Position numbers and translations under genes: made by a program
Origin: a virus
Strand: one strand, 5' to 3'
IMG/VR virus record: IMGVR_UViG_3300022072_000103
Location: 1-27,566 of that record
DNA length: 27,566 nucleotides
Notes under the pieces: generated by a model
Told to the model about the DNA's origin: nothing
The model's input: the letters and a program-made list of their open reading frames with translations, nothing else
Databases searched by the model: none
Shown here: positions 2,556 to 12,325 of the stretch, in pieces
How positions within the stretch are numbered: the first letter of the stretch is position 1
Layout of the letters: the number at the start of each line of letters is the position of its first letter

Positions 2556-3419
2556 TCAATCGTCTTTGACGGTGAACCTGATAGCGCCGCGCGCGTCACG
2601 CTTCATGGTGAGTTGAGGTGAGTAAAGTTCACGCTCGGTTGGACCCACCATATCTTTGAGTTCTTTTTTGATCTCATCGTGGCGCTTGGCCGCAGCTTTG
2701 GTTGTGATAAATTCAGGGATCAAAGCCTGGGCGCGGTTGTCTTTGCTGATGTCGCGGCGCGTCATGTTGTCGAGTGGCACGCTGTCCTGAATAGGCTTCG
2801 GCATAACGACGCGATGATCGCTTTCGTAGTTGGACGGTGGTGGTGGGATTTTGTCGTCCAGATAGCCCCAGAATGTCTCGCAGCGAGTAAGGTAATGTTC
2901 TTGCCAGTCAATGCTTGCACCGATCCAGATGCGCTCGGGTTCGGCGTTGTTGCAGATTGCAGAAAAGAGCAGCTTATCAATGCCCCAGCAGATCATGTGA
3001 TGCTGGATTTGTGGCATGTAATGATTGGCGCAGTCTTCGGCTTTCGTAAAGCGTCCGGTGTGCTTCACTTCCACAGGGAAAGTGGTGCCGGACAGATTGA
3101 TGAGCGCGTCTGGGTGCGAGATCAGCTTCGCGACCTTGCCTGTGCTGACTTCTTTGTGAAGGTAAGTGGCTTCGTGCTGATCATCGGCACCAACACCCTT
3201 GGACCACTTCACATCTGTGTATTCGTCTTTCAGCTTGCGTGAAATCCAGTTGAGGTGGAACGGCTCGGTGTAAAGCCCAAGCTGAACGGGGAAGTTGTCG
3301 GACAAATCAGGAAATTCAATCTCCCCGGTCTTCAATTTGTAGAGGTGCAGGTAGTTGCCTGCGATGATGTCCTTGGCGTCGGACGACGTGATCGAGGTTG
3401 CGCGGTATGCTTGGTCCAT
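2556..3419 (-). CDS. YqaJ/lambda-type 5'-3' exonuclease
   Basis: The 287-residue protein shows the PD-(D/E)XK nuclease core of the YqaJ/lambda exonuclease family. Visible elements are a Glu-Pro element in LGLYTEP (residues 48-53), SHPDALI (Asp104), FPVEVK (Glu117, Lys119) and YMPQIQHHMICWG (Gln137-His141). These place the metal-binding Asp, Glu and Lys in the expected order and spacing. Such enzymes resect double-stranded ends so that the partner annealase (next gene) can pair the single strands. ATG 3417-3419 is the likely start, since a TTG upstream has no better ribosome site. The C-terminal 100 residues are charged and helical. Two bases separate it from the upstream gene. Confidence 0.85.
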   Translation of the reverse strand: MDQAYRATSITSSDAKDIIAGNYLHLYKLKTGEIEFPDLSDNFPVQLGLYTEPFHLNWISRKLKDEYTDVKWSKGVGADDQHEATYLHKEVSTGKVAKLISHPDALINLSGTTFPVEVKHTGRFTKAEDCANHYMPQIQHHMICWGIDKLLFSAICNNAEPERIWIGASIDWQEHYLTRCETFWGYLDDKIPPPPSNYESDHRVVMPKPIQDSVPLDNMTRRDISKDNRAQALIPEFITTKAAAKRHDEIKKELKDMVGPTERELYSPQLTMKRDARGAIRFTVKDD

Positions 3420-3421
3420 TT

Positions 3422-3646
3422 TCAATGCTTTCTAAGGTTGAGGGTGGAAAACTTAACGGCTTTCCCGTCCTGTTTATGGCGAATGGTTGTTTCGACCATT
3501 CCAAGAAGGAAGACACGTTTCGGAGCGGACATTTCGTATGCCATGAGAATGGTTGCGAATAGTGAGCAGATTTCCCGTTGTGTCATTTCTTTGGGAAGCT
3601 GAACGACGATATCGCCAATCAGAGATACAAGTTCATCATCTGTCAT
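3422..3646 (-). CDS. Hypothetical 74-residue protein
   Basis: The start is ATG 3644-3646, overlapping the stop of the upstream loader-like gene (ATGA). The longer frame to 3739 reads antisense-like low-quality sequence. The product begins MTDDELVSLIGDIVVQLPKE and continues with helical segments and a basic end (TIRHKQDGKAVKFSTLNLRKH). It ends two bases before the exonuclease start. No family is recognised; position between loader-like and exonuclease genes suggests an accessory of replication or recombination. Confidence 0.65.
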   Translation of the reverse strand: MTDDELVSLIGDIVVQLPKEMTQREICSLFATILMAYEMSAPKRVFLLGMVETTIRHKQDGKAVKFSTLNLRKH

Positions 3647-4263
3647 GGCGCTGGCTTCTTCACGATGCGGCGCAAGGCGTTCACAAGCTGAATGCGCCAG
3701 CCAGAGTGCGTGTCCAGTTCTGTTTTGATCTCTGCCCAACTCGGGAAGAAGTGAGACTTGTCGCCAAATTCACGCATGACGATCTGGACGCTGGCGGTGG
3801 GATACATTTTCAGCTTGTTGAAGTAGATCCCGAGCAGAGCGGCTTTGTCGTCTTCTGACAGCTTTTCATGCTTGGTGGTAAGCCAGAGTTCATAGATGGC
3901 TGATTTGAGGGCATCCGAATGGACAGTGCTGGACTGAACATGGTCCACGGCAAGGGACATTTGATCAGTGGTGATGCCTAACGGCATGTATTGAACAAAA
4001 CCGTTAAAGAAGCCGAGATACCGAACAGAATTGGCCTTCTCGAAGGCTTTCATATCGGCAAAGTCTTTGGGGTGTGCGCTAACGCATTGCAGAAAGGATA
4101 GAGCGGATCGAAGTTGCTTGGTTTCGTGGGCCTGCAAGGACAATCGGTGCTGGTCCGCTTGGCCGAGTTTCAAGGAGGGCGGTTGCATTTCGGAGGAAGG
4201 CCCCGTCACGGTCGGCAGGTCTGATGTTGACGCCTTCTCTGGCGGTATAATTTCTGAAGTCAT
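3643..4263 (-). CDS. Probable helicase-loader-like replication protein
   Basis: The 206-residue frame has a C-terminal helical segment that resembles a recurrent phage replication module: YFNKLKMYPTASVQIVMREF followed by FFPSWAEIKTEL. The 'yP...v......W......FfPs.aEl...l' pattern is often found in loader or replication-protein-P-like genes next to an initiator, as here. ATG 4261-4263 has AGGAA upstream and gives an N-terminus of about 60 Ser/Pro/Gln-rich residues. That part overlaps the upstream gene by 185 bases in another frame. An internal start at 4053 would avoid the overlap but has no ribosome site. Function is by context and motif only. Confidence 0.5.
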   Translation of the reverse strand: MTSEIIPPEKASTSDLPTVTGPSSEMQPPSLKLGQADQHRLSLQAHETKQLRSALSFLQCVSAHPKDFADMKAFEKANSVRYLGFFNGFVQYMPLGITTDQMSLAVDHVQSSTVHSDALKSAIYELWLTTKHEKLSEDDKAALLGIYFNKLKMYPTASVQIVMREFGDKSHFFPSWAEIKTELDTHSGWRIQLVNALRRIVKKPAP

Positions 4264-5307: not shown

Positions 5308-6993
5308 TTACAGGTCTGGGAACCAATTTTTTTCTGCTGCAAACTTTACGGCGCTATCAACGAGATCGCCTTTCTTCGATGCTTCGTCAGCGCCGTGGCC
5401 GCATTCGTGAATGATGCGGACCAACTGGCCTTTTTTGCAGGATGAAAAGAAGTTTTCATCAGGTTTCCAGTATTTTTCAACAGTTTTGCGGTCTGTTTGA
5501 GGTGCTTCGCTGTGAGACAGAAGCAAGGCATAGGACAATGCTTTCATGAGCGCGGCGTCAGGCAGAGCCTTTTTATCCATGACATCAAGTTCCATTGACG
5601 CAAGATAAGCCTTTTCGGCAGCGTCCATGGCCTTGCCTTGGGTGAAAGAAGTACCCGTTTGCAGGGCCACGTCTGTGAAGTTCTGGTTGATGAGAAATGC
5701 ACCACCATAGCGATCGTGGGTGGACGCAAGAAACAGGCGCAGAACACCGTTGGGATCGGCAGCTTTTTCATTCATCACAGTGAGGCGTTTGATGCGGTGC
5801 AAATCAAGCACAACACCAGCTGGAAAGTCAGGTTCGTCGGCGGCTTCACCATTTTCAGTGAGTGATGATGCTTTTTCAGAAGCGGGTTTGACAATTCCAG
5901 CGTCAACACAAGCCTGATAGCCTTCTTTGTCGTCTGGAATGACGCCAAAGCGGACCTGATAGCCTTCTTTTGAGTTGATACGCACGGAATAGATTACACC
6001 GAGCAGCTTTTTGTGATGCGCAGGGATTTCCCGCTCATATTCACGTCCGGCCCATTCAGCAAAGAAGGCTTCTTCCTGCTTTGTCAGCTTGGGGTTTTCT
6101 TCGTCCATTTTGTCTTCGATGGCTTCGAGGCGCTCACGCTGTTCGTCGGTCATAACCAGTTCGCCAGAATAGGCTTCAAAGTCGTAAAGGCTATCGACAC
6201 GCGTGATAGAACCCCAGACTTTGCCCCAGTCTTCCCAGACGTTGACCATTGAACCCAAGATGGCTTTCTCGGCCATTTTATCGAGGAGGTCTGCGTCCTT
6301 GATGTTGATTTCATCGCTGAACAGATCAGCTTCATATTCGCCGCCTGCATCGATGTAGTCTTGCTGGCTTACCCATGCGGAAGCGGCGCGGTTGGAAAAC
6401 TGGCTGAACCCTTCGGACGCGAGATCCCTCATATGGGATAGTCCGAACCATTTTTGGCTCAAGCAGCGTTTGAAGCAGTCTTCAAGAGTGGTCTTGTCGT
6501 CAGTAAAATAAACAAGCCCCTGCATCTGGTCGGAGTTAATCTCGTCGTTGAAGAAGGCTTCGAGGATCTTCTTGGGCAGCTTGGACATTGCCATGCAGCG
6601 TTTGACGATGCTCAAGGGGCGGTCGATCAGGCGTTGGACTGCAACCGGGTCGAGGTCTTTGAAAGCGTCACCTGAAAGCAGGTTTACGACATCTTTCTCG
6701 GTCATTTTTTCACGAACAAGGTTGTCGACGATACCGATCTGGACGGCATCTTCTTTGTTGATCTGTTGGAAAGGGACTTTGTGATCAGCTTCGAAGATGT
6801 TGGACAAGGCCAAGAGACGGCGCTGTCCGGCCACGACATGAAGCTGGTTGTCTTCAATATATCCAACAAGAGGGTTAATGAGGCCGCGTTCGCGGATCGA
6901 GTTCTCAAGACCGATGATGTTTTCTACCGACTTGCGAGGGTTTTCATCAGCAACACGAATGTTGCCGATTTCTATTTCTTGAATGGAGTTCAA
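5308..6993 (-). CDS. Large plasmid-type ParB-like protein
   Basis: The 561-residue protein starts at TTG 6991-6993, with GAGG upstream and overlap with the previous stop; no in-frame ATG lies nearby. The N-terminal ParB/Srx domain shows NPRK (18-21), IIGLENSIRERGLINPLVGY and HVVAGQRRLLALS (52-64, box matching the GxRR phosphate-binding motif). An HTH-like helical region follows at about 95-190. The C-terminal part has KTVEKYWKPDENFFSSCKKG, a segment I associate with long ParB-like proteins of alphaproteobacterial plasmids. No ParA is adjacent, so segregation is not implied; gene regulation or DNA protection is equally possible. The gene ends 60 bases before a strong terminator. Confidence 0.8.
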   Translation of the reverse strand: MNSIQEIEIGNIRVADENPRKSVENIIGLENSIRERGLINPLVGYIEDNQLHVVAGQRRLLALSNIFEADHKVPFQQINKEDAVQIGIVDNLVREKMTEKDVVNLLSGDAFKDLDPVAVQRLIDRPLSIVKRCMAMSKLPKKILEAFFNDEINSDQMQGLVYFTDDKTTLEDCFKRCLSQKWFGLSHMRDLASEGFSQFSNRAASAWVSQQDYIDAGGEYEADLFSDEINIKDADLLDKMAEKAILGSMVNVWEDWGKVWGSITRVDSLYDFEAYSGELVMTDEQRERLEAIEDKMDEENPKLTKQEEAFFAEWAGREYEREIPAHHKKLLGVIYSVRINSKEGYQVRFGVIPDDKEGYQACVDAGIVKPASEKASSLTENGEAADEPDFPAGVVLDLHRIKRLTVMNEKAADPNGVLRLFLASTHDRYGGAFLINQNFTDVALQTGTSFTQGKAMDAAEKAYLASMELDVMDKKALPDAALMKALSYALLLSHSEAPQTDRKTVEKYWKPDENFFSSCKKGQLVRIIHECGHGADEASKKGDLVDSAVKFAAEKNWFPDL

Positions 6994-7436: not shown

Positions 7437-7617
7437 TGGTAAAACCTTTCGTAATGCGTTGAAAGAGGGTCACAAGGCGGGACGTTTGAGGCGCCCATAC
7501 CTTGAGGGGTTTGTACGCGGTGATCGCGTGGGACAGGATGCACAGATCGTCTTCGGTCAAATACGCAAAGCGCGTTTTCCCGTCTGGATATTCGACTGTG
7601 ATCCTGATTTTGGTCAT
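7375..7617 (-). CDS. Hypothetical 80-residue protein
   Basis: ATG 7615-7617 overlaps the stop of the ArdC-like gene (ATGA). The first 60 residues (MTKIRITVEYPDGKTRFAYL... DDLCILSHAITAYKPLKVWA) look like a small beta-rich domain. The last 20 are basic (SFPLIKTDFKASKRPRK) and run 62 bases into the next gene in another frame. The overlap with ArdC and the sensible N-terminal composition support the gene; the C-terminal tail is less certain. Confidence 0.6.
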   Translation of the reverse strand: MTKIRITVEYPDGKTRFAYLTEDDLCILSHAITAYKPLKVWAPQTSRLVTLFQRITKGFTNANSFPLIKTDFKASKRPRK

Positions 7618-8522
7618 GCGGCTTCTACTCGGTCGTAGGTTTCAGCCGGTTGTTGCTCGTTGCACCACTTCAGAGCCTTGCTGGCTTCGGCCGCGGCTTT
7701 GAAGATCAGCGTGTGGTCTTCATCGAGGGCTTTTATCCACGAATTGAGGTAAGCAGCTTGGTCCTGGCGCGGCAAAACTTGCAAGCCGAGTTCTTGACCA
7801 ATCATGGCGCTGCCAATCTCTGCAATGAGTTCCTCAAAGGCGCGGGTTTTGATGCTGCGCGAGTAATCATGGAGCGTGGCACGATCAAGGCGGTGTTTCG
7901 CGCCTGTTGCGTGCGTCAGCTCGTGGAACAACGTGCTGTAATAGTGATCAGAGGCGTCTGCTTCCTTGGTGTCCAAGAAGTCATTGATAGGTGGCAGGTC
8001 AATCTGATCGAGGGCGGGAATATACATTGGCTGGGAACCATTGTGGGTGATGGGAACCTGACAATTGGTAACGAACAAGTCGTAGTTTGTCACGTTTTGA
8101 AGTTCTGTGCGTTCGGGGCGCTCTTGCAACGGCTCAAGGTGATCGAGGTTGATGTTGCCAGTCTGTGAAACGTGCAGAACACGGTAGAATTTCATCACAC
8201 GGTAGGTTTTGTTGTCGCCGTTTGCTTCCTCCTTGATGTTGGTTTTGTAGAAAACGATGGGAATGGTCTTCGATCCCTTGATGATGTGGCCACCAAGGGA
8301 CTTGATCTGGTTTGGCGTCAGAAAACGGGGATCGGATTGCTTATTCTGCTGCAACCAGAAACCCGTAATCATGGAGTTGATGCCCGTGTAAACGTGTCCG
8401 GTGTTGCCGTTCATGGGAGCGTTCAAGGATACCCAAGATTTTGTCCAGTTCAGCCCCTCTGTTTTCATCATCGTGACGATCTGGGCTGTAAATTGTTGCT
8501 GGAGGTCTGTGAGATTGGACAT
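7614..8522 (-). CDS. ardC: ArdC-like antirestriction protein with zincin domain
   Basis: The 302-residue product has the two-part ArdC layout. The N-terminal single-strand-DNA-binding domain (about 1-125) carries GLNWTKSW, GHVYTGINSMI and GSKTIPIVFYK. The C-terminal metallopeptidase-like domain has FHELTHATGAKHRL (HExxH at 200-204) and RAFEELIAEIGSAMIG (third-ligand glutamate region, about 230-239). Known ArdC proteins are carried by conjugative plasmids and protect entering single-stranded DNA from restriction; the peptidase substrate is unclear. AAAGG lies 9 bases before the ATG. The first 182 bases overlap the end of the upstream membrane-protein frame. The partner ParB-like gene two genes downstream strengthens the plasmid-like flavour. 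Confidence 0.9.
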   Translation of the reverse strand: MSNLTDLQQQFTAQIVTMMKTEGLNWTKSWVSLNAPMNGNTGHVYTGINSMITGFWLQQNKQSDPRFLTPNQIKSLGGHIIKGSKTIPIVFYKTNIKEEANGDNKTYRVMKFYRVLHVSQTGNINLDHLEPLQERPERTELQNVTNYDLFVTNCQVPITHNGSQPMYIPALDQIDLPPINDFLDTKEADASDHYYSTLFHELTHATGAKHRLDRATLHDYSRSIKTRAFEELIAEIGSAMIGQELGLQVLPRQDQAAYLNSWIKALDEDHTLIFKAAAEASKALKWCNEQQPAETYDRVEAA

Positions 8523-9523: not shown

Positions 9524-9631
9524 GTTGAAGATCCGTTTGTGGCGCTGGACCTGCGCTTGCGGGGTGCAAGGCGGTCACGGTTCGCGCATGTGAGGGTGAG
9601 GCCCGGTACACAGGCCAGTTAAAGGGAAACT

Positions 9632-9659
9632 GCCCCCGCCACATTTCTGCGACAGGGGC
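9632..9659 (-). terminator. Probable intrinsic terminator after the 204-residue gene
   Basis: On the - strand GCCCCTGTCGCA (9659-9648) pairs with TGTGGCGGGGGC (9643-9632). The 12-bp stem includes three G-U pairs and is capped by a GAAA tetraloop. It is followed by a moderately T-rich stretch (AGTTTCCCTTT). It lies 20 bases after the stop of the 204-residue gene. The spacer 9524-9631 holds no gene and no convincing promoter. Confidence 0.7.
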
Positions 9660-9679
9660 GATACTCGTTACGAACGGGG

Positions 9680-10294
9680 TTATCCGTTGGCGTTGCGGTC
9701 AGCGACTTCTTCCTCGCTGGTGATGCCATCGGTGTTGGTCGGCGAAAGGCTCGCTTTGACGCCGAAAGCAGCCATGCGACGTTCAAGTTCGTTCGCCTTG
9801 CTGTTTTGCTGACCCGTTGGTGCAGGTGTGTATGGCATGTAAGCCTCACCAGTCGCGGTGCCGTAGATCGCCTTGGCTGCGTTCAACAGTTGCTCGATCG
9901 CCAGCGTTTCTGTTTTGCGGTTCTCGGCAAACATGATCACGCGGTCCAGCTGTTGCATGCCCAACTCGTCGTTGACCACTTGGCGGTGTGCCTTCTCGAC
10001 CTTGGCGATGTCTTCGCGCAGCTTGTCGGCAAACCACTCATGCTTCTTTTCTAAACCGTAGATGATCGATCCAAGGATGTTCTTCTGGACGAAAGCCATT
10101 CCGTTCACTTCAACTTGCTCGCCCAGCTGGCGGTTGAATTGAAGGCGTGGATCATTGAATTGATCGGCGATGATCTGCATCGCGGTGTGTACGTCTTGAG
10201 CATCGATCTGATCCTGCAAGCGTTGTGCTTCTGCCGAAGCGTCGGTAGCAAATTCGATGAGTTCAGCTTTGTTCATTGCGTTGATGTTAGTCAT
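9680..10294 (-). CDS. Hypothetical 204-residue helical protein
   Basis: I take ATG 10292-10294, because GGAG lies exactly 7 bases upstream; the ATG four codons earlier is itself part of that ribosome-binding sequence. The product (MTNINAMNKAELIEFATDAS...) is mostly helical, with charged segments (GLEKKHEWFADKLREDIAKV, ENRKTETLAIEQLLNAAKAI) and a disordered tail (PTNTDGITSEEEVADRNANG). No catalytic motif is visible. Its leader (10295-10436) contains structured element A and the 17-base ribosome-binding leader that is repeated before the gene at 10812-10964, so the two genes may share regulation. Confidence 0.75.
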   Translation of the reverse strand: MTNINAMNKAELIEFATDASAEAQRLQDQIDAQDVHTAMQIIADQFNDPRLQFNRQLGEQVEVNGMAFVQKNILGSIIYGLEKKHEWFADKLREDIAKVEKAHRQVVNDELGMQQLDRVIMFAENRKTETLAIEQLLNAAKAIYGTATGEAYMPYTPAPTGQQNSKANELERRMAAFGVKASLSPTNTDGITSEEEVADRNANG

Positions 10295-10308
10295 GTCGTT
10301 CTCCATTT
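10292..10308 (-). repeat. 17-base leader repeat, copy 1 (ribosome-binding site plus start)
   Basis: The - strand reads AAATGGAGAACGACATG, identical to 10962-10978. It includes GGAG, a 7-base spacer and the start codon of the 204-residue gene. Both copies follow a structured element with a related core. Confidence 0.85.
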
Positions 10309-10324
10309 ATTTTTCATATTTGTT

Positions 10325-10436
10325 GATAACTCCCCGCGTCAGCAGACTAAGCGGGGTGATGGTCAAGGCGGCGCTCTTGCGCCCCTGCTTCAGCAGGTTG
10401 CCTTGACGATCGCACTGCGTGGATGCAGCGATTATC
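10325..10436 (-). ncRNA. Structured element A (candidate leader RNA or structured DNA)
   Basis: In the gene-free spacer before the 204-residue gene, an outer stem (10325-10330 with 10431-10436) encloses three substructures. The first is a hairpin CACTGC/GCAGCG (10413-10430). The second is a perfect three-way junction: GTCAAGGC 10362-10369 with GCCTTGAC 10400-10407, enclosing GGCGC/GCGCC 10370-10383 and CCTGC/GCAGG 10384-10397, both with 4-base loops. The third is a hairpin CCCCGC/GCGGGG (10332-10356). The same junction is found with compensatory changes in element B. The strand is inferred from position before a - strand gene; both strands can fold. Confidence 0.6.
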
Positions 10437-10439
10437 TAT

Positions 10440-10655
10440 TTATTTCTTTGTTTTTTTCATCATACGAAGCGTTGCTTGAAGCGCGTCACGAATGGCGGTG
10501 ACTTCCGTTTCCAAGCAAGCGATGCGCTCACGGCAATCTTCGTTGATGTGATCCTGCACTGTCGAAGGCGAACGCTTCCAGGTTGGCTTCTTGAATGTTG
10601 GCATTGCAGGGAGGGTGATGGCGGGGATCGTCAATGTGATGGTCTTCGTTTTCAT
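10440..10655 (-). CDS. Hypothetical 71-residue coiled-coil protein
   Basis: AAAGGA lies 8 bases before ATG 10653-10655; a TTG five codons upstream is less likely. The product starts MKTKTITLTIPAITLPAMPT, then a basic linker (FKKPTWKRSPS), then a helix with heptad spacing (ACLETEVTAIRDALQATLRM) and a basic end MKKTKK. It follows the 26-residue membrane peptide by 11 bases. The apolar N-terminus is beta-like and prolines make a transmembrane helix unlikely. No family recognised. Confidence 0.65.
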   Translation of the reverse strand: MKTKTITLTIPAITLPAMPTFKKPTWKRSPSTVQDHINEDCRERIACLETEVTAIRDALQATLRMMKKTKK

Positions 10656-10666
10656 AGTGTGTCCTT

Positions 10667-10747
10667 TCAAGACAGTGTGATGATGTAGGTGATGAGGGCG
10701 ACGACAAGCGTGATGCTTGCCGCCAGAGCGATTGTGTCCAACTTCAT
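10667..10747 (-). CDS. 26-residue membrane micropeptide
   Basis: ATG 10745-10747 overlaps the stop of the previous micropeptide (ATGA) and has GGAG 9 bases upstream, so the start signal is strong. The product is MKLDTI followed by ALAASITLVVALITYIITL and a final Ser: one transmembrane helix with almost nothing outside it. It stops 11 bases before the next gene. Size and position suggest a single-helix modulator of a membrane partner. The function is unknown. Confidence 0.65.
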   Translation of the reverse strand: MKLDTIALAASITLVVALITYIITLS

Positions 10748-10812
10748 AGGAAGATGCTCCAAAAGAAGTAGAGGGAAGCTACAAGGGAAGCGTTAAGGAA
10801 TAATGTGTGCAT
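10744..10812 (-). CDS. 22-residue membrane micropeptide
   Basis: The start overlaps the stop of the previous gene as TAATG (ATG 10810-10812) and GAGG lies 10 bases upstream. The stop overlaps the next start as ATGA. The product begins MHTLFLNASLVASLYFFWSI and ends FL, a short apolar helix with an aromatic end. Being bracketed by two start/stop overlaps makes translation likely despite the tiny size. Confidence 0.55.
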   Translation of the reverse strand: MHTLFLNASLVASLYFFWSIFL

Positions 10813-10964
10813 TAGAATGGTACCTCATCTGAGAGAAGAATTTGTGGTTGGGTGGCGATCGGAAGCGGCTCATCGTCGTATTCGTCAATGAGCAGCATGT
10901 CCTCCCATATCTGGGCGTCACGGTCTGTCAGTGGTTCTTCGATAAAGTGAAATCTCTGTTGCAT
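10812..10964 (-). CDS. Acidic 50-residue hypothetical protein
   Basis: ATG 10962-10964 is preceded by the repeated leader with GGAG at 7 bases. The product is strongly acidic (MQQRFHFIEEPLTDRDAQIW, then LLIDEYDDEPLPIATQP) and ends LLSDEVPF, again with a terminal Pro-Phe after acids as in SSB-type tails. It opens the micropeptide string. The leader region upstream contains the large structured element B. An SSB-mimic role is speculative. Confidence 0.65.
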   Translation of the reverse strand: MQQRFHFIEEPLTDRDAQIWEDMLLIDEYDDEPLPIATQPQILLSDEVPF

Positions 10965-10978
10965 GTCGTTCTCCATTT
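10962..10978 (-). repeat. 17-base leader repeat, copy 2
   Basis: Identical on the - strand to 10292-10308 (AAATGGAGAACGACATG), ending in the start codon of the 50-residue protein. It lies immediately 3' of element B on the - strand. Confidence 0.85.
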
Positions 10979-10984
10979 GTTACT

Positions 10985-11207
10985 CGCACAGATCGCCTGT
11001 CCGATGGCCGACGCACGCTATGAGGATGATCGCACTGAACGAAGTGAAGGAACGGTCAAGGATCGCCTCTTGGGGCGACCAGCTTGCTGGCAAAGCTCAT
11101 TTTAGCGAAGCGGCCCAGCTCGTCTGGGCAAAATGAGTTGCAGTCCTTGACGGTGCATCATCCGCATGGCCTCTCGGAGAGACAATCCGGACGGGCGATC
11201 CTGTGTG
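10985..11207 (-). ncRNA. Structured element B (large candidate leader RNA)
   Basis: The gene-free sequence folds into nested helices. GATCGCCTGTCCG (10991-11003) pairs with CGGACGGGCGATC (11188-11200), 13 pairs extended outward by six more after a bulge. GGATGAT plus GCAC (11024-11035) pairs with GTGCATCATCC (11153-11163). GTCAAGGA (11055-11062) pairs with TCCTTGAC (11144-11151). Inside are hairpins TCGCC/GGCGA (11063-11078), CCAGC/GCTGG (11079-11090) and an extra arm CTCATTTT/AAAATGAG (11096-11137) carrying GCCCAG/CTGGGC. The core matches element A with covarying stems. On the - strand it ends about 20 bases before the start codon at 10964. Confidence 0.65.
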
Positions 11208-11405
11208 TGTGGTATTGGGAAGGCGTAGCAAGGCAATGACGGAAGACCCCGATAGATGATCGAGCGCGCAGGAGCTTATCGCAGATAAGTCCGAAGCAGC
11301 GACAATCATCCGGGGGCCGGCAGTGACGCAGCGAAGACGGGATACAAACACAGGTCTGGTCTGCCCCACGTATCGAAGGGTTCAGCCTGTTTGCGCTAGG
11401 AAGCC
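11208..11405. other. Gene-free stretch with further inverted repeats
   Basis: No credible gene is seen. A long imperfect hairpin spans 11255-11310: GATGAT/ATCATC outside, and GGA plus CTTATC pairing with GATAAG plus TCC at the tip. CCGG/CCGG (11310-11320) can form a small hairpin. CCTGTGT (11200-11206) could pair with ACACAGG (11348-11354), competing with the outer helix of element B. The stretch may be part of the same RNA or carry the early promoter; no consensus sigma-70 promoter is evident. Confidence 0.4.
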
Positions 11406-11612
11406 TTAAGCACGATTAGACCGAGATCGGATCTTCTTCATCAGCTTGTTGTGCTTGTTCTGCGCCTTCCGCTTCGCGTTCATCACAGCCTTACGCTTGG
11501 CAAGGTTCTCTTTGATAGAGCGGTCAATAGCCGATTTCGATAATACTTGGGACAATGCAGGCTCCACAGACAGGTTCACAGAGACAGTAAAACAAGGGGC
11601 TTCCCGCGTCAT
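11406..11612 (-). CDS. Small basic protein at the head of the early region
   Basis: I choose ATG 11610-11612 because AAGGA lies 7 bases upstream; ATG 11625-11627 is the alternative. The 68-residue product has a neutral strand-like first half (MTREAPCFTVSVNLSVEPAL) and a very basic helical second half (ENLAKRKAVMNAKRKAQNKH... KKIRSRSNRA), which suggests nucleic-acid binding. It is the first - strand gene, divergent from TerS. An antiterminator or nucleoid-type role would fit its position, but that is inference. Confidence 0.6.
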   Translation of the reverse strand: MTREAPCFTVSVNLSVEPALSQVLSKSAIDRSIKENLAKRKAVMNAKRKAQNKHNKLMKKIRSRSNRA

Positions 11613-11675
11613 ATGAATATCCTTCATAATGATGGCCCGTAATATGAAAAACATTCACTTGACAGAAATACAGCT

Positions 11676-11698
11676 GAGGGGGGAGTAAGAGGGGGGAG
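11676..11698. repeat. Tandem G-rich direct repeat between divergent gene blocks
   Basis: GAGGGGGGAG occurs at 11676-11685 and again at 11689-11698 (period 13) in a purine-only run on the + strand. It lies in the 149-base spacer between the divergent early and late genes. Two G6 runs could support a quadruplex. No consensus promoter pair is seen here, although TTGACA occurs at 11659-11664 on the + strand. Confidence 0.5.
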
Positions 11699-11761
11699 CG
11701 GGCCGCACGGGCTGCACCACCAATAGGCTGAAACCCTCCCTCGAACGAAAGGTTCCTCCAC

Positions 11762-12214
11762 ATGAATGATCAGCTTCCCGATGTCGCCATGGACGCCAGC
11801 GCAGCACTCCAACAGTACGGAAACATAGAGCCGATCGAACTCGAAAGCGGACACGCACTCACAGTCAGACAAACACAAGCAATCATGCTCCACGTCTGCG
11901 AAGGCTGGCCGACAGCAGCAATAGCCGAAGCACTCGGTTATTCAGCTCCATCAGTGCTTTATGACTTCTTCAACAGAGACACAGGGAGAGAAGCTCTACT
12001 CTTGGCCACTCGTCGCTACCTAAGCAGTGCAGCAATCATTGGTCTACACACGATGGTGAAGCTGGCAAAGTCAGCCCGATCAGAGAACGTGAGGCAGATG
12101 GCAGCGGCGGATTTGATGGACCGCGCGGGGCTACGCGAGGCAGCAGGTGGGACTGGCTCGGGTACAGCAATTCAGGTCAACATTGACCTAGGGGGAGGGG
12201 TGGGTCAAAACTAG
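11762..12214 (+). CDS. terS: Terminase small subunit-like protein
   Basis: The 150-residue product has an N-terminal helix-turn-helix region (ALTVRQTQAIMLHVCEGW, AAIAEALGYSAPSVLYDFF) and a helical C-terminal section ending in SENVRQMAAADLMDRAGL, the 'R..AA..lldraGl' pattern common in terminase small subunits. These proteins recognise the packaging site and recruit the large subunit. AAAGG lies 11 bases before ATG. It is the first late gene, but four to five small genes separate it from TerL, which is unusual. Its codon third positions are dominated by A and C, opposite to the next gene. Confidence 0.75.
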   Translation: MNDQLPDVAMDASAALQQYGNIEPIELESGHALTVRQTQAIMLHVCEGWPTAAIAEALGYSAPSVLYDFFNRDTGREALLLATRRYLSSAAIIGLHTMVKLAKSARSENVRQMAAADLMDRAGLREAAGGTGSGTAIQVNIDLGGGVGQN

Positions 12215-12270
12215 GTGGCCCCCCCCTGTAATACCCCCACCAACCCAGACAAAACGCAGAAGAAAAGGTT

Positions 12271-12283
12271 CGTTTGTGGCGCT
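12271..12283 (+). repeat. 13-base repeat shared with 9534-9546
   Basis: CGTTTGTGGCGCT occurs here, 43 bases before the 12326 start, and again at 9534-9546 just upstream of the 54-residue early gene. Both copies are in non-coding spacers and on the same strand. It could be a binding site; a chance match is not excluded. The rest of the spacer (12215-12325) has a C8 run and no gene. Confidence 0.35.
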
Positions 12284-12325
12284 CGTTTTAAGTTGTTCAC
12301 AGCGGCCTAATAGAGAGGGAACGGC

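Follow-up and report, generated by a model that had tools for sequence, protein, structure and literature searches.

GTAG REPs/RAYT elements are dispersed palindromes of folded DNA that have short loops, carry a GTAG tag and are associated with a tyrosine transposase. The CGTC-tagged REP superfamily consists of short palindromic intergenic DNA sequences, dispersed mainly in Alphaproteobacteria and often paired head to head with two hairpins side by side, in which an unpaired CGTC (or variant) directly precedes an 8-9 bp hairpin beginning with A/T pairs (Di Nocera et al. 2013, PMC3733652). The put RNA of phage HK022 is about 70 nt long, forms two stem-loops without an enclosing stem and lies next to early promoters (PMC9378689). 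The element described here resembles REPs and HK022 put, yet fails a defining test of each.

The window, that is the whole stretch of DNA analysed, is a virus record of 27,566 bases. It contains two copies, A and B, of one family of T-shaped palindromes. In this family the stem GTCAAGGC/GCCTTGAC closes a junction with two unpaired A, from which two hairpins arise directly next to each other; as a rule a longer outer helix carries the whole. The features concerned are the following.

10362..10407, - strand: element A core; closing stem GTCAAGGC/GCCTTGAC, unpaired AA and two abutting 5-bp hairpins forming a three-way junction (basis: fold, family matches, covariation).
10325..10440, - strand: extended A domain; the core set within an outer helix GATAA/TTATC and flanked by two hairpins (basis: fold z, sister-phage identity).
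11055..11151, - strand: element B core; closing stem and hairpin order of A, third arm on the AA side (basis: fold, sister-phage identity).
10985..11207, no strand assigned: extended B domain; nested outer helices 10991-11003/11188-11200 and 11017-11030/11157-11170 (basis: inverted repeats I8 and I12, fold z, sister-phage compensatory changes).
9680..10294, - strand: early gene after A, without family match; in both the sister phage and phage L348 the element precedes a related gene.
10812..10964, - strand: small ORF after B, 50 aa, kept in the sister phage.
10292..10311, - strand: leader copy for the gene after A, with its start codon and ribosome-binding region; direct repeat D3, 95%.
10962..10981, - strand: leader copy of the small ORF after B, direct repeat D3, 95%.

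On the - strand the core of A reads GTCAAGGC, AA, CCTGC-TGAA-GCAGG, GGCGC-AAGA-GCGCC and GCCTTGAC, and that of B reads GTCAAGGA, an extra arm, CCAG-CAAG-CTGG, TCGCC-CCAAGA-GGCGA and TCCTTGAC; in the family both hairpins are enclosed by an 8-bp stem. Re-checking of sequences and coordinates bore out the original prediction that A and B have in common the closing stem GTCAAGG/CCTTGAC and the order of two abutting hairpins, with an extra arm in B: the closing stem of B is that of A except for the last pair, A-T, and its third arm is inserted at the junction on the AA side. All six pair-preserving differences claimed between the copies are there, four in one hairpin, one in the other and one in the closing stem; the B hairpin proposed as CCAGC/GCTGG does pair, but its usable stem is of 4 bp, not 5 bp. 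Against dinucleotide shuffles the A core folds with z = -5.9 on the + strand and -5.7 on the - strand, and the extended A domain (10325-10440) reaches z = -6.3 on the - strand against shuffles. The B core alone gives a modest z of -2.3 to -2.5, and B with its outer helices (10978-11206) gives -5.0 on the + strand and -2.8 on the - strand.

Both elements are kept in a sister phage (L186/L187), which encodes the gene after A at 74% identity. Between the two phages, A with its leader (10295-10439) is 94.5% identical and the B core 95.9%, against 64-73% in the coding regions round A and B, 53% at 10757-10962 and 58% at 11208-11400. The conserved island takes in the element and the untranslated leader as far as the start codon. 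The sole change in the A core is a loss of 2 nt in the loop region of hairpin 2, and the outer helix of B carries two compensatory changes. At the level of sequence, A and B thus stand as conserved islands, evidently under purifying selection. The region 11199-11402 gave no significant structure in the folding test; within it, 40 nt at 11261-11300 are 90% identical to the sister phage in otherwise poorly conserved surroundings.

Pattern scans of viral and bacterial collections, in which nothing was specified but the closing stem, the AA and the opening pairs of hairpin 1, returned 38 distinct matches, 27 of which complete the same three-way junction where shuffled interiors lead one to expect 0.71; this test is the least biased, because the patterns demanded neither hairpin 2 nor the rest of hairpin 1. 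The original prediction had looked to relatives for covariation in the stems, and among 20 representative copies 11 of the 18 pairs are changed on both sides and 98.8% of cells pair, counts that lean towards structure because the alignment was padded by hand with N to fit it and a few rows came from structure-aware searches. None of 500 shuffles comes near the covariation of the 20 copies, and compensatory changes are present in all three stems. The closing stem also varies in distant phages, reading GTCAAATC/GATTTGAC in L058 and GTCAAGTC/GACTTGAC in L348. The fold scores against shuffles, the conserved islands of the sister phage and the proportion of matches forming the junction together sustain the earlier claim of a selected structure, and the T-shaped element is a real genetic element and apparently an undescribed one.

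Several searches gave nothing or only candidates to be rejected. The pattern GTCAAGG-CAAGAG-CCTTGAC found 104 stretches in viral contigs, essentially all of them chance, and was replaced by AA-junction patterns. Ten loci have the pattern but not the fold (L205, L206, L216, L219, L221, L224, L228, L263, L264 and L266), as do L349-L351 for the GA-junction pattern. With blastn against named phages, nothing was found for 9600-12300, and a 44-mer gave only partial weak matches. A blastn match to a Roseivivax plasmid is real; the next plasmid match lies inside an acyl-CoA dehydrogenase gene and was discarded. The element was not found in Pelagibacter phage Hodr, the nearest cultured terminase relative. 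A relaxed three-way-junction search over 147 kb upstream of terminase genes yielded 10 matches against 12 in the control, and only L271 (same as L058) and L341 (same as L348) were accepted from it. In four phages (L306, L297, L301 and L305) an early MTKK... gene has in its leader a weaker, G.U-rich three-way fold with the AA junction, which may be a divergent family member or due to chance.

The original prediction knew of no described family with this form, and none turned up: Rfam 15 (cmscan) gave no match to the window at E<=1 and only weak chance miRNA matches to relatives, and the core sequence and similar motifs found no match in the open-licence literature. The likeness to the CGTC-tagged REPs lies in the distribution and in the fact that many of the present copies also end in CGTC...GACG. 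Here, in contrast, GTC belongs to the paired closing stem (of the 20 aligned copies one alone departs, and at no more than the first pair), and after it come AAGGC or a variant of it, the AA junction and hairpins beginning CC; membership was rejected, the tag of that superfamily being by definition unpaired. With the GTAG REPs/RAYT elements the present family has in common that they are dispersed folded-DNA palindromes with short loops, whereas those are single hairpins and this is a three-way junction; the GTAG tag occurs in none of the 27 junction-forming cores, and inspection by eye found no evident RAYT gene among the listed neighbouring ORFs of the copies looked at. HK022 put likewise has two related structured copies in early transcription units and hairpins side by side, but no counterpart of the 8-bp enclosing stem, a difference in defining architecture on which membership fails.

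The element is also found outside phages. It is carried by a plasmid of Roseivivax marinus; it lies between an integrase-like ORF (by eye) and a KfrA_N gene in L265, before a coupling-ATPase-like gene in three Rhizobiales-type loci (L217 by Pfam; L196 and L218 by eye), and between carA- and carB-like genes (by eye) in a Rhodovastum MAG (L202). Two Melainabacteria-type MAG loci have it, the next gene in one of them (L227) being a tyrosine integrase, as do two Lachnospiraceae and two Eubacterium MAGs. In two alphaproteobacterial MAGs it is a dispersed repeat of 13 and 8 copies, against 1-2 in other genomes. Chromosomal copies occur in both orientations relative to genes. The family is uncommon, since with strict filters a match remained in one of 239 further genomes taken from the class to which the Leisingera genome belongs. 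The proposal of a phage leader-RNA family therefore holds as to the family and the leader position, and its restriction to phages is lost with the plasmid, mobile-element and chromosomal copies.

Some of these loci show further common features. Seven Rhizobiales-type loci (L196, L207, L208, L217, L218, L251 and L252) share a conserved 3' tail, about 45 nt long, in which GGGAATG or a variant of it occurs at two places some 26 nt apart with CACCA between them; L202 and L214 have a different tail in common, 83% over 41 nt. A DUF3768 gene adjoins the element in L214 (confirmed by Pfam) and in L251 and L252 (by eye). In L214, from Hoeflea poritis, a small protein (3397-3894), RuvC-like by eye, also adjoins the junction-shaped element.

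In phages the position is uniform: the element lies in the sense-strand leader of the following gene in 10 of the 10 viral contigs or groups read.

Viral contigs/groups with the element, coding strand of the following gene: window, L186/L187, L190, L191, L192, L058, L053, L268, L262, L348/L352-L354.

The start codon stands about 45-110 nt downstream, each phage has 1-2 copies (L192 may have a second, B-like element at about 771-913), and the following gene is mostly early and adjoins the early/late boundary. This agrees with the earlier claim of a position before - strand genes, now seen as leaders of early genes and kept in sister and distant phages; the common leader claimed for the genes after A and B was likewise found, 20 nt at 95% identity. 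A itself lies between two same-strand genes and not at a divergent promoter. The gene after the element in the window is related to that of L348 (E 9e-7), and resembles those of L190/L191 by only about 20% over the alignment; family searches of its protein gave no match, and the predicted structure is helical with a mean pLDDT of 56, not usable. The leftward genes of the window encode a ParB-like protein, a RecE-like exonuclease and a protein matching an anti-restriction family, and the rightward genes begin at 11762 with the terminase small subunit. Two of the leftward genes, 7614-8522 and 5308-6993, are a phage anti-restriction family match and a 561-aa ParB_N protein.

The question of which strand is active receives opposing answers: leader position in phages favours the mRNA (-) strand, whereas loop types and wobble changes favour the + strand. 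On the strand opposite the mRNA (window +), 39 of 52 loops are canonical (26 GNA, 5 GNRA, 2 other GNNA and 6 CUUG), against 0 of 52 canonical stable loops on the mRNA strand. Loops of the GNA and GNNA types are the hallmark of ultra-stable DNA mini-hairpins (PMC4686876), a rule that 33 of the 52 + strand loops obey; such loops are found in 30 of 38 non-phage and 3 of 14 phage cases, counted by hand over related copies that are not independent. Core pairs that are not Watson-Crick are mostly A.C on the mRNA strand, equivalent to G.T on its complement; in B, the changes seen in the sister phage again lean in their wobble direction towards the + strand, and a few cases (hairpin 2 of L058 and one pair of B) point the opposite way. 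Outer-helix wobble counts are even (81 versus 86). A bias of RNA energy towards the + strand (22 of 27) was set aside as a composition effect, since shuffling of the flanks removes it (17 to 10); by the same test the structure does reach into its flanks, with a mean flank-shuffle z of -3.4 to -3.6. Of the two natures originally proposed, leader RNA or structured DNA site, the first thus has the phage position on its side, while loops and wobbles point to the opposite strand.

Our preferred reading, at a probability of roughly 0.42, is that of a REP-like T-shaped palindrome kept by phages as an early-gene leader and acting as RNA on both stability and processing of the downstream cistron. In bacteria and plasmids it would be a REP-type intergenic element of REP-type origin, and in phages it would act after transcription. 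The rigid three-way junction could cap or insulate the downstream cistron at its start, so that decay is slowed and the processed 5' end is set, and the near-invariant stem and AA would be the face read by a putative host factor. A leader RNA is suggested by the unvarying sense-strand position in all ten viral contigs or groups, by the island conserved from element to start codon, by the location of A away from any divergent promoter, by compensatory changes in all three stems and by the relatedness of the following gene in the window, L186 and L348; in phage copies the DNA-type GNA/GNNA loops have moreover been lost, as though a different constraint acted there. The absence of canonical loops from the mRNA strand, the predominance of A.C mismatches on it and the two orientations of chromosomal copies speak against an RNA, and leader position in related phages may reflect common descent only.

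The + strand loops, many of which suit DNA, and the wobble changes that lean to that strand make the next candidate a site on the + strand in the form of folded single-stranded DNA or a cruciform, unlikely though worth keeping in view: a T-shaped pair of mini-hairpins would be read by a DNA enzyme, for example as a priming or replication site or as a target through which a single-strand transposase would disperse the element. Its standing is owed to the loop evidence; the integrase, KfrA and coupling-ATPase genes that adjoin copies and the dispersed repeats of the two MAGs also agree with it. It sits badly with phage copies that mostly do without GNA/GNNA loops and always occupy a sense leader near a start codon, with the failure to find a dedicated enzyme and with a + strand energy bias that vanishes against shuffled flanks. 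A doubtful combination of the two would have one sequence-conserved junction, common to phages, plasmids, integrative elements and bacteria of several phyla, exist as folded DNA with GNA mini-hairpin loops and as phage leader RNA with the same fold; a single conserved host factor would recognise either form by its GTCAAGGC stem and AA junction.

An antiterminator like put, in which the nascent leader RNA binds RNA polymerase and carries it through early-operon terminators, would account for two copies in one early transcription unit, as with putL and putR in the early units of HK022 (PMC9378689), for leaders of both phage and mobile-element operons and, through a universal partner, for the wide host range. 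It is improbable, put being two stem-loops without an enclosing stem (PMC9378689) and neither terminators (21 terminator-like sites against 16.4 expected) nor promoters (9 promoter-like sites against 9.0) being convincingly placed. Very improbable is an RNA of the + strand, whether directed against the early leader as antisense or belonging to a rightward late leader: the better fold of the B domain on that strand and its GNRA and CUUG loops would fit, but the region is full of - strand genes conserved in relatives and the promoter scan gave no + strand support. An inert mobile repeat lying by chance in phage intergenic spaces, as the dispersed copies in two bacterial genomes might suggest, is hardly credible and for the phage copies largely refuted, because the 95-96% identity of A and B amid genes at 64-73% and the compensatory change across phages require selection.

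A fold kept in shape and in stem sequence across phages and several bacterial phyla implies a conserved partner. Current annotation passes over the family, because it is absent from Rfam and no description of it was found in the open-licence literature. The opposing strand signals pose a sharp and cheap experimental question, and the partner, if found, would reveal either a new phage RNA control of early genes or a new DNA site of mobile elements.
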